From the NCBI RefSeq assembly GCF_023015985.1, contig NZ_JALKAO010000002.1, positions 496,001-560,000 on the forward strand: DNA of 64,000 bases, given 5' to 3'. The position numbers and the translations under genes are program-made. Below the pieces are notes generated by a model. It was given only the letters and a program-made list of their open reading frames with translations, had not been told where the DNA came from and ran no database searches. Below, piece after piece: positions 48,227 to 53,677 of this stretch (its first letter is position 1; every line of letters begins with the position of its first letter). This stretch comes from Marivita sp. S6314. GTDB lineage: Bacteria; Pseudomonadota; Alphaproteobacteria; Rhodobacterales; Rhodobacteraceae.

Positions 48227-48244
48227 TAATGAGTGGAGTGGGGC

Positions 48245-51200
48245 ATGGAACCCGTAACCGATGTGTTCGGAACGCAGACGTCTGCGGCTGCAATGGGATT
48301 TGGCTTGAACGGCGTCACCGATTGGAGTGTTCAACAGCCGTTTCTGGATGTGTTCAAAACAGCGCGTCCGTGGATGATCCATACCGAGGACCAATGGGGG
48401 GCCTATTCTCCGGAACAGCTCGCCTCCATGGGCGCGCTCGACGCCGATGGCTGGATCATGGATATACCGTCCGATGTGGATCGTATCCAGACAGTGATCC
48501 TCACGGAATTGCCGCAAGACGCGACCTATACAGCGGGTCTTTACCGTTTGAGTTATGACGGAAACGGCTCGATTTCGGTCTCCGGGGCAGAGATTGTCTC
48601 GCAAACCGACGGCGAAATCTGGTTCGACTACCAACCAACCGGCTCTGGCATGGTCTGGATCACCGTCGACGCCACCGACCCAGCCAACTATCTTCGCAAT
48701 ATCTCCGTCGTCAAACAGGAGCACATCCCCGCCTTCGAAGCAGGTCAGGTCTTCAATCCGCTGTGGTTGGACGTGATCGATAATGCGCATTCGCTGCGGT
48801 TCATGGACTGGATGGAGACCAACGACTCCACCCTGCAAAGCTGGTCCGAGCGTCCGCACGAAGCGAAATACACGTATTTCGGCGGTGTCCCGGTCGAGGT
48901 GATGGTCGATCTGGCCAATGCAACCGGCACCGAACCCTGGTTCAACATCCCCTGGCATGCGGACGAAACCTTCATTCGGGAGTTTTCAACTTACGTCCGC
49001 GACAATCTCGACCCTGACCTGCGCGCTCATTTCGAGATGTCCAACGAGGTCTGGAACTGGATGTTCGAACAGGCGCAGGATGCGTCGCAAGCCGCACAGC
49101 AACGGTTCGGGCAGGAACTCGGCGACGGTTGGGTTCAGGAATACGGAGCGCGGTCAGCGGAAATGGCCGCGATCCTGGATCAGGTTTACGCGGGTCAGGA
49201 ACACCTTCTGGTCAAAGCGATTGCAACCCATACCTTCTGGCCCGGCCTGGAAACGGCGATCCTTGAAGCCCCGGCTTGGCAGGCCCAAAACGCTGGCAAT
49301 GATGCGCCGTTTTTGTCGTTCGACACCTATGCGATCACCGGGTATTTCGGGAACAGCTTTGGCACCGACGCCAAGGCAAACGCGGTGTTGCAATGGGTGG
49401 CACAAAGCGAAAGCCAAGCCCGACAGGACGCCGCGGCGCAGGGCCTTAGCGGTGCGGCGGCCGATGCATATGTCGCCGACCACCGCTACGATGCGGCGGT
49501 TGACCTTGCGATCCGGGAACTGCGGGACGGGTCCGTGACCGGCGATGCCGAGGATTCGCTACAGGGTCTGTTCGAACTGTTCCGCTATCACAAATCCGTG
49601 GCAGATGCGCACGGACTTGATCTGGTGATGTACGAAGGCGGGACACATATCGTCGGCGTTGGCCCGTGGGTGGACAATGACACGCTGACCGATTTCTTCC
49701 TGCATTTGAATTACTCGGATGAGATGGGCCATCTCTACGAGGAACTGCTGGCCGGATGGGAAGCGGCTGGCGGGACGTTGTTCAACGCCTTTGTCGATGT
49801 GGCGCGGCCGTCGCAATGGGGCAGTTGGGGATCCCTGCGACACCTTGAGGACGATACCGGTCGGCACAGAGCAATCGACGATTTCATCGACCGGCACCCC
49901 GCACCTGATCACATGAAAGATGGACTCTGGAATTCGGTCCCGCAGGATTTCGCCCCGGTTCCGAGCCCTGATCCGGACCCGCAGCCGGACCCCGAGCCCG
50001 ATCCGACCCCCACGCCAGAGCCAACACCAGATCCGGAACCGTTTCCTGATCCCGATCCCGATCCGACACCGCCTGTGGCCCCAACCGATCCGGTGGCGGA
50101 CGTGCGCGAATACATTTTTGGCAACAGTCTCATTGCCTGGGCCGTGGGAGACCCGGAACTGTCCGTCACGCATTGGACGGCACAAATGGCGGCTTCGGCA
50201 GGATCGAGCTATGCGGCGGCGATGCAAACCGGCATGTTGAGCGATCACGACGATCTGCCCGCGCGGCCTCATATCAACATGAGCACGGTCACCGAGGCCT
50301 TGGACCCGGACGGTGACCAAAGCTTTGCGGATGTCGGTTTCACCCAGATCACCATCTCTGCATCGAATTTCGTGCAATATCAGGCACCGGACGAGCCGTA
50401 TTGGGGATCGTCCGACACCTCGCCTGCCGAGGCCGCGATGCGCGTGATCAACTGGGCGTCGGACCGTGCGCCCGGCGCGACGATCAACATCTTCGAGACG
50501 TGGCCCGAAATGGAAGGTTTCGCCGCAAGTTTTCCACCGACAGAGGCGGAGTTCGCCGCATGGCAGAACTACATGTTGGGAGACTGGCACGACTGGTGGG
50601 TTTCGCTGTCGGAAACCATCAACCGGCAAAGACCGGACCTCGACGTGCGATTGATCAGCGTCGGTCCGCAGATCGCGGCAATGCTGGACGATCCATCGCT
50701 GGGTCTCACGGGGATGACGGTGCAAGATCTTTATCAGGATGACGCGCCACACGGGACACCGACGCTTTATTTCCTGGCGTCGCTTGTCCACTACTCCGCG
50801 ATTTATGGCTCTGCACCGCCGAGCAATTTCGCGGTGCCCAACACCGTTCACCCTGCTGTGCGCGACAATTTCAACGACATTGTCAATTGGCTGGCCGAGG
50901 CAGGGGGCACTGGCTTGCCAGAACCTCTGGTCGCACCCTTCAGCGACCGGTCAGAGGATTTGAGTGCCGGGGAGTCAGACGTGGGTTCCAACGCGATCGA
51001 AACACCTGTCATCACCACAAGCTCTGACGGGATCATTGGGCAGAACGGGGACGACCGGATTGTTCTGCAAACCGGCAACACCGCGGTCGATGGCCGGGGG
51101 GGCGAAGACACTCTTGTTCTGGCTGGAAACCAGGCGAACTATTCCGTCCGCTTCCTGGACGATACGATTGTCGTTGAAAACCGATCCGATCCAGACGAGC

Positions 51201-51889
51201 TGCCGGTCGCGTTGCAGAACATGGAATGGCTGGATTTCGGGCAAGAGACTGCGCCCTTCGACGCGCGCGGGGTGGATTTGGACTTGTTCGACGGGATGGC
51301 CAGCCTTGACGCCGCTGCCGTTGCGGCCCTGACCGAGCTTTACATCGCGTATTTCAATCGTGCTCCCGACGCGGTTGGACTGTTTTTCTGGGGCAATCAG
51401 CTTGCGAACGGTCGATCTTTGACCAACATCGCGGAACAGTTCTTCGATCAGCCGGAAACGCGCGCGGTGTACGGGGATCTGACCGATACAGACGCGTTTG
51501 TCACCGCCGTGTACCAGAATGTGCTGGGGCGTAGCCCGGACAGCGGTGGTATGGCATTTTGGATGGATGTTCTGGAGAGCGGCTCTGGAACCACGCCAGC
51601 GACGTTCATTCAGGCGATTATTGCGGGTGCCAAGGCTGACACAGGTGCGCCGCAGGACGCAGCCTACCTGGCCAACAAAGTTCTGGTTGGCACGCATTAC
51701 GCGGTCACGCGCGGCATGTCCGATGTGGAGGACGCGAGCGCAGTGATGCTGGGTTTCGACGGAACCAGCACGGCTGTGCAGCAAGGTATTGCGGCGACCG
51801 ATGCGCTGTATTCCGACATTCTGGATGGGACGACGGATGGTTTCCTGATGCAACTTGTCGGGCTGAGTGACGATCCGTTCACCCTGTAG
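48245..51889 (+). CDS. Large multidomain exoprotein: glycoside-hydrolase-like, SGNH-like, RTX-like, DUF4214
   Basis: A 1,214-residue acidic protein with no N-terminal signal peptide. About residues 1-560 resemble clan GH-A hydrolases: acid/base in HFEMSNEVWNWMF (about residue 268) and a nucleophile candidate in VMYEGGTH (about 464). A PDPDPEPDPTP-type linker covers about 575-615. About 617-895 look SGNH-hydrolase-like (YIFGNSLIAW; DDAPHGTPTLYFLASLVHY). An RTX-like stretch (GQNGDDRIVL, GRGGEDTLVL) is at about 925-960, and DUF4214 repeats (YFNRAPDAVGLFFW; VLGRSPDSGGMAFW) at about 1030-1110. The C-terminal layout suggests type I secretion. ATG 48245 has a GGAGTGGGG ribosome-binding site. Confidence 0.82.
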   Translation: MEPVTDVFGTQTSAAAMGFGLNGVTDWSVQQPFLDVFKTARPWMIHTEDQWGAYSPEQLASMGALDADGWIMDIPSDVDRIQTVILTELPQDATYTAGLYRLSYDGNGSISVSGAEIVSQTDGEIWFDYQPTGSGMVWITVDATDPANYLRNISVVKQEHIPAFEAGQVFNPLWLDVIDNAHSLRFMDWMETNDSTLQSWSERPHEAKYTYFGGVPVEVMVDLANATGTEPWFNIPWHADETFIREFSTYVRDNLDPDLRAHFEMSNEVWNWMFEQAQDASQAAQQRFGQELGDGWVQEYGARSAEMAAILDQVYAGQEHLLVKAIATHTFWPGLETAILEAPAWQAQNAGNDAPFLSFDTYAITGYFGNSFGTDAKANAVLQWVAQSESQARQDAAAQGLSGAAADAYVADHRYDAAVDLAIRELRDGSVTGDAEDSLQGLFELFRYHKSVADAHGLDLVMYEGGTHIVGVGPWVDNDTLTDFFLHLNYSDEMGHLYEELLAGWEAAGGTLFNAFVDVARPSQWGSWGSLRHLEDDTGRHRAIDDFIDRHPAPDHMKDGLWNSVPQDFAPVPSPDPDPQPDPEPDPTPTPEPTPDPEPFPDPDPDPTPPVAPTDPVADVREYIFGNSLIAWAVGDPELSVTHWTAQMAASAGSSYAAAMQTGMLSDHDDLPARPHINMSTVTEALDPDGDQSFADVGFTQITISASNFVQYQAPDEPYWGSSDTSPAEAAMRVINWASDRAPGATINIFETWPEMEGFAASFPPTEAEFAAWQNYMLGDWHDWWVSLSETINRQRPDLDVRLISVGPQIAAMLDDPSLGLTGMTVQDLYQDDAPHGTPTLYFLASLVHYSAIYGSAPPSNFAVPNTVHPAVRDNFNDIVNWLAEAGGTGLPEPLVAPFSDRSEDLSAGESDVGSNAIETPVITTSSDGIIGQNGDDRIVLQTGNTAVDGRGGEDTLVLAGNQANYSVRFLDDTIVVENRSDPDELPVALQNMEWLDFGQETAPFDARGVDLDLFDGMASLDAAAVAALTELYIAYFNRAPDAVGLFFWGNQLANGRSLTNIAEQFFDQPETRAVYGDLTDTDAFVTAVYQNVLGRSPDSGGMAFWMDVLESGSGTTPATFIQAIIAGAKADTGAPQDAAYLANKVLVGTHYAVTRGMSDVEDASAVMLGFDGTSTAVQQGIAATDALYSDILDGTTDGFLMQLVGLSDDPFTL

Positions 51890-52129: not shown

Positions 52130-52315
52130 TCTGGAACACTTTGCCCACGATGGTGACCGCTGCCAAAAACAGCGGTCTAATAGGGAATACGGTGAAATTC
52201 CGTGACTGCCCCCGCAACTGTAAGCGGCGAGTGTACTGTACGAAAGCCACTGGGCGACCCGCCTGGGAAGGTGTTCAGCGCATCGTGACCCGCAAGTCAG
52301 GAGACCTGCCATTGC
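52130..52315 (+). ncRNA. Cobalamin (AdoCbl-class) riboswitch
   Basis: Contains the conserved elements in order: GGGAATACGGTGAAATTCCG (52183-52202), CTGCCCCCGCAACTGTAAGC (52206-52225), GCCACTGGGC (52246 onwards), CTGGGAAGG (52263-52271), and the B12 box AGTCAGGAGACCTGCC (52295-52310). This is an unambiguous B12-element. It controls the gene at 52425 on the same strand. No classical cobalamin transport or synthesis gene is next to it. Confidence 0.97.
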
Positions 52316-52318
52316 ACG

Positions 52319-52422
52319 AAAACTGAACCCGGGCGGGGTGCACCGGAGGTCGAACGCGATATTGGCAGCCTGCCTTGATCAGTTTTGGACCTCTTGCACG
52401 TCGCCATAGCGCGGAGGGCGCT
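52319..52422 (+). promoter_or_regulatory. Expression platform of the cobalamin riboswitch
   Basis: Between the aptamer and the ATG at 52425, AAAACTGA (52319-52326) and TCAGTTTT (52379-52386) are perfectly complementary. Further on, AGCGC-GGAGG-GCGCT (52408-52422) places the ribosome-binding sequence GGAGG in the loop of a 5-bp hairpin, and CCTC at 52389-52392 could pair with it. No T tract follows a stem, so translational control is more likely than termination. Confidence 0.55.
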
Positions 52423-52424
52423 TT

Positions 52425-52727
52425 ATGTTGATTGCTCGGACCCTGACACAGCTTCAGGTCAAACCTGCTTCGCCGGAGCGGGCAAAAGAAATGGGACAAT
52501 TGGGATATATGCAATGGTTGGGCGGCCTGCCCGCCGGGGCCTGTTATCAGACAGAGGCGGCCTGCGCCTATATCGCCGCGATGCCGTTCAAAGAGACCGA
52601 TCCGGCAGTTGAAGTCTTTTGCGGATTGCTGCGGGCGTCCCTGAAGACCCCGCTGCAACCGCTTGACCTTGCCCTGCCCAAACCAAAGCGGCGCGGCGGC
52701 GCAAAAGAGCGGCGCTTGTCGCTTTAG
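52425..52727 (+). CDS. Riboswitch-controlled orphan protein, unknown function
   Basis: A 100-residue protein directly behind the cobalamin riboswitch, start ATG 52425 with GGAGG ribosome-binding site. No family recognised. The N-terminal part is soluble and mixed (ERAKEMGQLGYMQWLGGLPAG), a middle segment has three cysteines (ACYQTEAACAYIAAM and VFCGLL), and the last 20 residues are basic (KPKRRGGAKERR). No signal peptide or membrane span. Presumably made when B12 is scarce. Ends with a four-base convergent overlap with the PfkB kinase gene. Function cannot be guessed beyond a link to B12. Confidence 0.8.
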   Translation: MLIARTLTQLQVKPASPERAKEMGQLGYMQWLGGLPAGACYQTEAACAYIAAMPFKETDPAVEVFCGLLRASLKTPLQPLDLALPKPKRRGGAKERRLSL

Positions 52728-53677
52728 CCAGCCGCGCGCAACGCCGCTTCAAGTTCGTCCAGTGACGGCGGGTTGCACCCTGCCCGGCTGCAATTGATGG
52801 CCGCAGCCATACCCGCGCGGCGCAGCAAGGCCTCAACATCATCGCGCGACAGCTTGGACAACGCGTCCGGCGACAGCGCGTCGATGCGGTCCAACCCCGC
52901 CAGCAAGGTCGCCATAAAGGTGTCCCCGGCACCCACTGTATCGACCAGCCCCGGAACCGGAGGGGCCGGGATGTCGACCTGTGCGTCCCCAATCAACGCG
53001 GTTGCACCGTCAGGGCCCTTGGTCATCACCAGGAGGGGGGCGGATGCTTTGTCCCGCACGACGCGCAGCGCATCGGCCAAGGATTGCGCCGGGCATAGCC
53101 CTTCGAGGTCTTCATCGCTGAGCTTCAGCAAATTGGTCTTGCCCATCATGCGAAAGATGCGCGCACGGTACTGGTCGGGGTCGGTGATCACGGACAACCG
53201 AACATTGGGATCAAGCGACACCAACTGGCCGGATGTAAAGGCCGAGTCACAGGTGGCTTCCCACGCATCCGCATCCGCACCTTCGGTCACGGCCATGGAT
53301 CCGGTATGCAGCGCCGCCAGACCGTCTGGTATGACGTCTTGCAGGGACGTTGCCGTCACCTGCCGTTCGGCTGTTCCGTCGCGTTCGAATGTGTAAGACG
53401 GGATGCCATCCGTCACCGTCACCCGTGCGATGGTGGTTGGCGCGTCCACGCGTCCGCCACTCAGCACCACGTGTGACGCGGTCAGCGTATCGGCCAGAAG
53501 TGTGCCCCAGTCGTCGTTGGAAATCGGCGTCAGGTAATGGACGTTTGCAGACTGACGGCCCAGCGCCATTGCCACGTTGAACGGTGATCCGCCTGCCAGC
53601 GTCGAGACGGTGCCGTCTCGGGTCACATGATCTATCAGGTTCTCCCCGCCGACGCCGATAATAGAAGACTGTGCCAT
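52724..53677 (-). CDS. PfkB-family carbohydrate kinase (fructokinase-like)
   Basis: A 317-residue ribokinase/fructokinase-family enzyme. PfkB signature 1 LAGGSPFNVAMALG near residue 28, and signature 2 with catalytic Asp in DTVGAGDTFMA near residue 245. The sugar is unknown; many such Rhodobacterales enzymes are annotated as fructokinases. No sugar transporter is adjacent. Upstream spacer 53678-53851 includes an imperfect palindrome around GATATCACATATGGTATC (53721-53738), a possible regulator site. Confidence 0.88.
   Translation of the reverse strand: MAQSSIIGVGGENLIDHVTRDGTVSTLAGGSPFNVAMALGRQSANVHYLTPISNDDWGTLLADTLTASHVVLSGGRVDAPTTIARVTVTDGIPSYTFERDGTAERQVTATSLQDVIPDGLAALHTGSMAVTEGADADAWEATCDSAFTSGQLVSLDPNVRLSVITDPDQYRARIFRMMGKTNLLKLSDEDLEGLCPAQSLADALRVVRDKASAPLLVMTKGPDGATALIGDAQVDIPAPPVPGLVDTVGAGDTFMATLLAGLDRIDALSPDALSKLSRDDVEALLRRAGMAAAINCSRAGCNPPSLDELEAALRAAG

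Follow-up and report, generated by a model that had tools for sequence, protein, structure and literature searches.

Vitamin B12 is scarce in seawater, and many marine bacteria depend on it. A locus of Marivita sp. S6314, located in a stretch of 64,000 nucleotides that was analyzed as a whole (the window), raises the question of what a small orphan protein encoded behind a cobalamin riboswitch may contribute to such a cell. In the excerpt of PMC3766115 that addresses cobalamin regulons, four functional classes are listed (synthesis, B12 transport, cobalt transport, and isozymes), and the orphan gene falls outside these four classes. Based on the linkage between the gene and the riboswitch and on gene context in other genomes, we place the probability that the orphan protein has a riboswitch-regulated role in B12 economy at approximately 90%. 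The step at which it may act is considered below.

The riboswitch leader of Marivita sp. S6314

The aptamer (RF00174; 52134..52327, + strand) was matched over its full length (model positions 1-189 of 189) with 129.8 bits against a gathering threshold of 31.5 (E 2.4e-32), and the cobalamin riboswitch noted in the preliminary description was thereby confirmed. The remaining Rfam matches in the window were two tRNAs. The orphan gene, which was taken from the list of open reading frames with its ATG start (52425..52727, + strand), begins 97 nt past the end of the aptamer and encodes a helical protein of 100 residues (P0001). The gene that follows (52724-53677) runs in the opposite direction; therefore, the riboswitch unit holds one gene, as previously described.

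The leader fits the RF00174 family in score, length, and core. Two elements read from the sequence, the L5 loop AUUCC (52197..52201, + strand) and the sequence GGGGU just 3' of the aptamer (52335..52339, + strand), are candidate halves of an L5-L13 kissing loop, with the latter as the candidate L13 loop. A script run across leaders found a GCGGGGYR core 3' of the aptamer in 46 of the 48 usable leaders. The L5 partners exhibited no clean covariation across leaders when compared with a crude script, and the GGGGY loop itself was conserved. Further downstream, the hairpin AGCGC-GGAGG-GCGCT (52408..52422, + strand; read from the sequence) presents the Shine-Dalgarno sequence GGAGG (52413-52417) in its loop, 7 nt ahead of the ATG of the orphan gene. 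This hairpin had also been described previously, and the pattern of a Shine-Dalgarno sequence in a hairpin loop was retained in 46 of 48 leaders. By itself, the hairpin at 52408-52422 was no more stable than shuffled sequences (z 0.28; 117 of 200 shuffles were as good).

A pattern scan of the interval between the aptamer and the gene revealed no convincing terminator (two weak sites versus 1.2 expected), and one of the two weak sites was the Shine-Dalgarno hairpin itself. Since a convincing terminator was not found and a conserved Shine-Dalgarno hairpin precedes the start codon, translational control is favored, and the riboswitch probably acts on translation. By analogy with known riboswitches, bound cobalamin would hide the Shine-Dalgarno hairpin and translation would stop when B12 is plentiful, such that the cell would restrict its production of the small, helical, cytosolic protein to times of adenosylcobalamin shortage. 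A three-element switch, in which a single segment would pair with the L13 region and with the Shine-Dalgarno hairpin alike, was rejected as unproven by complementarity: duplex energies beat the shuffled mean in only 26 of 46 and 25 of 46 leaders. Consensus folds were obtained with RNAalifold for 13 Marivita and 21 other leaders, and no support was drawn from their covariation terms.

The genome of Marivita sp. S6314 (3.77 Mb) contains three cobalamin riboswitches. Of the two besides that of the orphan gene, one precedes a FecCD-type permease, and the other precedes a run of genes for a TonB-dependent receptor, a Peripla_BP_2 protein, and CobO. Among the three riboswitch units, that of the orphan gene is the only one without recognizable B12 transport or salvage genes.

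The protein family and its linkage to the riboswitch

A comparison with 11 Marivita relatives (16 relatives were compared in all) revealed 19-24, 13-16, and 47-62 differences at codon positions 1, 2, and 3, respectively, as expected for a protein under purifying selection. Judged by its sequence, the orphan protein is a real, conserved family. In alignment A1, the most diverse set (17 rows, divergent members included), L10, G27, W31, L35, A45, A48, F65, R89, R90, G91, G92, R96, and R97 were invariant. The basic tail had been correctly pointed out in the preliminary description and is the best conserved part of the protein: R89-R90-G91-G92-x3-R96-R97 (codons at 52689..52715, + strand) was invariant in all 17 rows of A1, and R90 was near-invariant in alignments A3 and A4. 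The cysteines noted in the middle of the protein (C40, C47, and C66) are present, but are not conserved across the family; of the three, only C66 approaches invariance within the main group, and some divergent members lack it.

The window protein matched none of the Pfam and NCBIfam families at E values up to 10, consistent with the previous placement of the protein outside known B12 families. Searches of known families against 17 family members yielded a best E value of only 0.34, PHROGs gave one match (E 0.43), and PADLOC gave none. A PDB sequence search (best E 1.1), PDB fold searches with two models (best E 3.2 and 4.3), and a fold search of BFVD viral models (best E 1.7) detected no relative, with a structure-search cut-off of E 0.001; no relative was present among 259 pattern matches in viral contigs. 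A cobalamin-binding motif or fold was not found in the family, sequence, or fold searches. In the AlphaFold2 model of the window protein (pLDDT 84.8, pTM 0.74), four helices form the core and a short one the tail; a Shimia member was predicted with the same helix order (pLDDT 83.8, pTM 0.68), and confidence in the tail was low. The highest hydropathy of any 15-residue segment near the N terminus was 0.7, and neither a leader nor a membrane segment was detected. The protein was not named in titles or abstract openings of the open-licence literature searched.

A single-sequence search identified relatives in 14 of 198 family-level genomes, and a 30-row profile identified relatives in 18 of the 198, 17 of which were accepted. 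The match in G189 (L110), which is partial (E 7.4e-4) and lacks a riboswitch, was dropped as a likely chance match and is outside the 64 loci discussed below. Within Marivita, the orphan gene was present in 15 of 17 genomes, twice in one of them. The named genome collection yielded 47 loci (L050-L096) in Rhodobacterales, Oricola, and Hoeflea as well as in one Tepidamorphaceae, one Hyphomicrobiales, and one Kiloniellaceae bin. These loci were found with a single pattern around GYMQW, and, thus, the conservation of GYMQW among them is built in. Three Cereibacter plasmids also carry the gene; its annotation reads "hypothetical protein" in two and is missing from the third. Two class-wide searches found it in at least 2 of 385 genomes each (at most 12 candidates per genome scored), while a phylum search found it in at least 1 of 170 genomes, namely its own (at most 29 candidates per genome scored). 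Since few candidates per genome were scored in these searches, absence elsewhere is weak evidence.

Of 64 distinct loci, 61 have RF00174 immediately 5' of the orphan gene and in the same orientation. The 64 loci comprise L050-L096 (47), the window, ten further family genomes (G011, G039, G044, G078, G080, G092, G115, G138, G141, and G176), the genus loci L042 and L043, the three plasmids, and L049; contigs that recur in L050-L096, as judged by length, were counted once (six from family genomes and 13 from genus loci). In L089, L091, L093, L095, and L096, the riboswitch was assigned by listed coordinates and motif, 109-126 nt upstream of the start. The preliminary description had named homologues away from a B12 element as the observation that would speak against its proposal, and the only clear exception was L049, a short divergent member for which no riboswitch was detected even at E 5. 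The leader of L051 is truncated by the start of the contig, which leaves the 3' end motif as its sole visible part. In L073, the Tepidamorphaceae bin, the riboswitch (1785-2008, + strand) is 3 kb upstream of the orphan gene on the same strand. This L073 riboswitch precedes ABC-transporter genes. The riboswitch was still present in divergent members that were barely seen by the first search and in L107-L109, which were found only with the profile. A divergent member in G539 (L123 6998-7267) has no riboswitch, and its gene runs convergently to rnhA and to a homoserine-kinase-like gene (names assigned by eye); B12 control of the protein has perhaps been lost in this lineage.

In a tree of 56 proteins, which was built on few columns and has long branches, the Rhizobiales and Kiloniellaceae members, several of which are bins, required three label changes, and well-supported branches forced at least two. 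These results make a transfer of the unit between orders likely. In Marivita G200, a genome without a homologue, both flanking genes known from the window are retained approximately 280 nt apart, and this gap contained neither a small-protein match nor an aptamer motif (searched by pattern, without Rfam). The second Marivita genome without a homologue, G207, showed only distant matches to a flanking gene. The riboswitch and gene come and go as a whole unit.

Gene neighborhoods and B12-related gene content

Neighbors were counted in 61 oriented loci with flanks. The commonest gene immediately downstream encodes a BtuF-like protein (11 of 61 loci); its start overlaps the stop of the small gene in six loci, follows within 7 nt in three, and follows after 19 and 58 nt in the other two. 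This protein matches Peripla_BP_2 of Pfam (PF01497), and a hydrophobic leader was not found in the one member checked. The leaderless BtuF-like protein is separate from the orphan protein and has no similarity to it in family searches. A DUF1289 (PF06945) gene is next in 4 of 61 loci, and its product is unrelated in sequence to the orphan protein. A split MetH is encoded downstream in four loci, in L023 behind gbcA and its reductase, and GbcA (betaine monooxygenase) is encoded nearby in six. A homocysteine methyltransferase gene is near the orphan gene in L093, and class I ribonucleotide reductase (RNR) genes are nearby in L069 (NrdA, upstream) and L022 (NrdE).

In the Cereibacter plasmids, the orphan gene lies between cobyrate/cobyrinate synthase genes and an ABC transporter, each with riboswitches. 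Plasmid pORIO2 of Cereibacter azotoformans (L112 153-12149) has five RF00174 matches within 12 kb along with cobalamin synthesis and ABC transport genes, and a pseudoazurin gene is beside the ABC transporter. Divergent members in G044, G138, G141, G176, and G115 adjoin a UvrD/PcrA helicase gene (checked with Pfam in G115), and the gene in G115 is also beside FecCD, ABC, ExbB, ExbD, and TonB genes. In the Marivita loci, the unit is flanked by genes for a large protein that looks secreted and for a PfkB-like kinase, neither of which has an evident link to B12. An ORF of 1218 residues at 48233-51889 of the window, rich in Pro/Asp repeats and with a repeat-like C-terminal region, lies next to the unit, a position in which it is conserved in Marivita.

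Co-occurrence was examined in 198 family-level genomes by three uncorrected tests that treated genera as independent. The BtuF-like protein was more common in carriers of the orphan gene (6/17) than in other genomes (21/181; Fisher p 0.016). Class I RNR was not more common (2/17 versus 19/181, p 0.70), and strong MetE-like matches were present in none of the 17 carriers and in 26 of 181 others (p 0.14). The genome of Marivita sp. S6314 encodes the B12-dependent RNR NrdJ (590.8 bits), no class I RNR above the cut-off, and no real MetE (one weak match, 27 bits). Since this genome and 11 of the 17 carriers lack the BtuF-like protein, it is not an obligate partner.

Possible roles of the orphan protein

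The preliminary description considered a new component of B12 economy to be plausible, and the linkage in 61 of 64 loci and the B12-related neighbors in other genomes strengthen this proposal. Because the switch and gene are nearly always together in related bacteria, the orphan protein probably represents a previously undescribed element of the response of these organisms to B12 scarcity. A family that stands behind its own B12 sensor in this manner points to a step in the response to B12 starvation that is unnamed in the family libraries searched. The role is directly testable because the protein is small, the hosts are cultured, and a genetic test is ready.

We tentatively propose, at somewhat below even odds, that the specific step is the handling of cobalamin in the cytosol. 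Judging from gene context, the protein would hold scarce cobalamin or pass it on to essential B12 enzymes. In some lineages, it may act together with the leaderless BtuF-like protein, which would share its transcript, and the basic RRGG tail would serve as the contact to a partner. Handling is ranked first and an RNA-binding regulator second because the partner most often encoded in the same operon is cytosolic and related to a B12-binding protein, and because other riboswitch-linked proteins of initially obscure function proved to be B12 handlers, according to the excerpt of PMC13398666. The lack of a cobalamin-binding motif or fold in our searches, the variable neighbors, the carriers without a BtuF-like protein, the existence of L049 without a riboswitch, and the duplex energies that did not surpass those of shuffled sequences argue against handling.

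The excerpt of PMC13398666 describes Bacteroides BtuG, BtuH, and BtuJ1/J2 (DUF4465) as such cases: similar to the orphan protein, they were once of unknown function and encoded in cobalamin-riboswitch loci, and they proved to serve B12 capture. However, these binders are surface or periplasmic lipoproteins, and BtuJ1 is a beta jelly roll according to the same excerpt, whereas the orphan protein is leaderless and all-helical in its model. A BtuG-, BtuH-, or DUF4465-type binder was rejected as a description of the orphan protein, given the hydropathy of 0.7, which indicated no export signal, and the all-helical models, which had no beta fold.

With less confidence, we speculate that the riboswitch and gene form a portable cassette that has crossed orders and moved onto plasmids, and that it encodes the first member of a new B12-economy class: a tiny cytosolic factor that would allocate the last cobalamin to NrdJ and MetH or hold it back. 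If true, this new class of protein would be neither a synthesis protein, a transport protein, nor a replacement enzyme.

A small regulator of the response to B12 starvation that binds RNA or DNA, would be made at low B12 through the riboswitch, and would contact transcripts such as those of metH, nrdJ, or uptake genes with its Arg-Gly tail is unlikely, yet fares best among the alternatives to cytosolic handling. In its favor, no feature is better conserved than the tail RRGG-x3-RR, even among the most divergent members; the riboswitch stays with the gene when the neighborhood differs, as anticipated for a freely acting factor; and the models and fold searches gave no enzyme-like fold. However, a basic tail alone is weak evidence, and the protein did not match known nucleic-acid-binding families.

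The GbcA, split MetH, homocysteine methyltransferase, NrdA, and NrdE genes near the orphan gene, and the L069 locus in which nrdA, the orphan gene, and gbcA are each behind a riboswitch with a MetE-like gene next, suggest that the protein assists metabolism that spares B12 or does without it (class I RNR, betaine demethylation, or methionine synthesis). We regard this role as improbable because the genome of Marivita sp. S6314 has neither a class I RNR above the cut-off nor a real MetE, and carriers are not enriched in either. In this host, therefore, no tie exists between the orphan protein and replacement isozymes. A general backup of B12-independent isozymes was rejected based on the content of this genome and the co-occurrence counts. 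Even less probable is a membrane role in the uptake of B12 or cobalt, as a subunit or as a regulator: the gene adjoins uptake genes in the Cereibacter plasmids and G115, but it is mostly outside transporter operons, and the protein has no leader or membrane segment. The possibility that the ORF is non-functional or mere leader read-through of the riboswitch, as its small size and lack of a functional annotation might suggest, is negligible in view of the codon-position pattern and conservation over many genera.

In Hoeflea alexandrii, three cobalamin riboswitches are present within 8 kb (L069 419-8269), and this region reads as an island of B12 independence. The gbcA genes are behind their own RF00174 in four of the six GbcA loci, all on the - strand (L008 1050-1245, L065 7735-7938, L069 8083-8269, and L077 8873-9071); L068 showed none, and L022 was outside the scan. 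A literature search for GbcA together with a cobalamin riboswitch returned no paper. If true, the control of betaine demethylation by B12 would be a new link.
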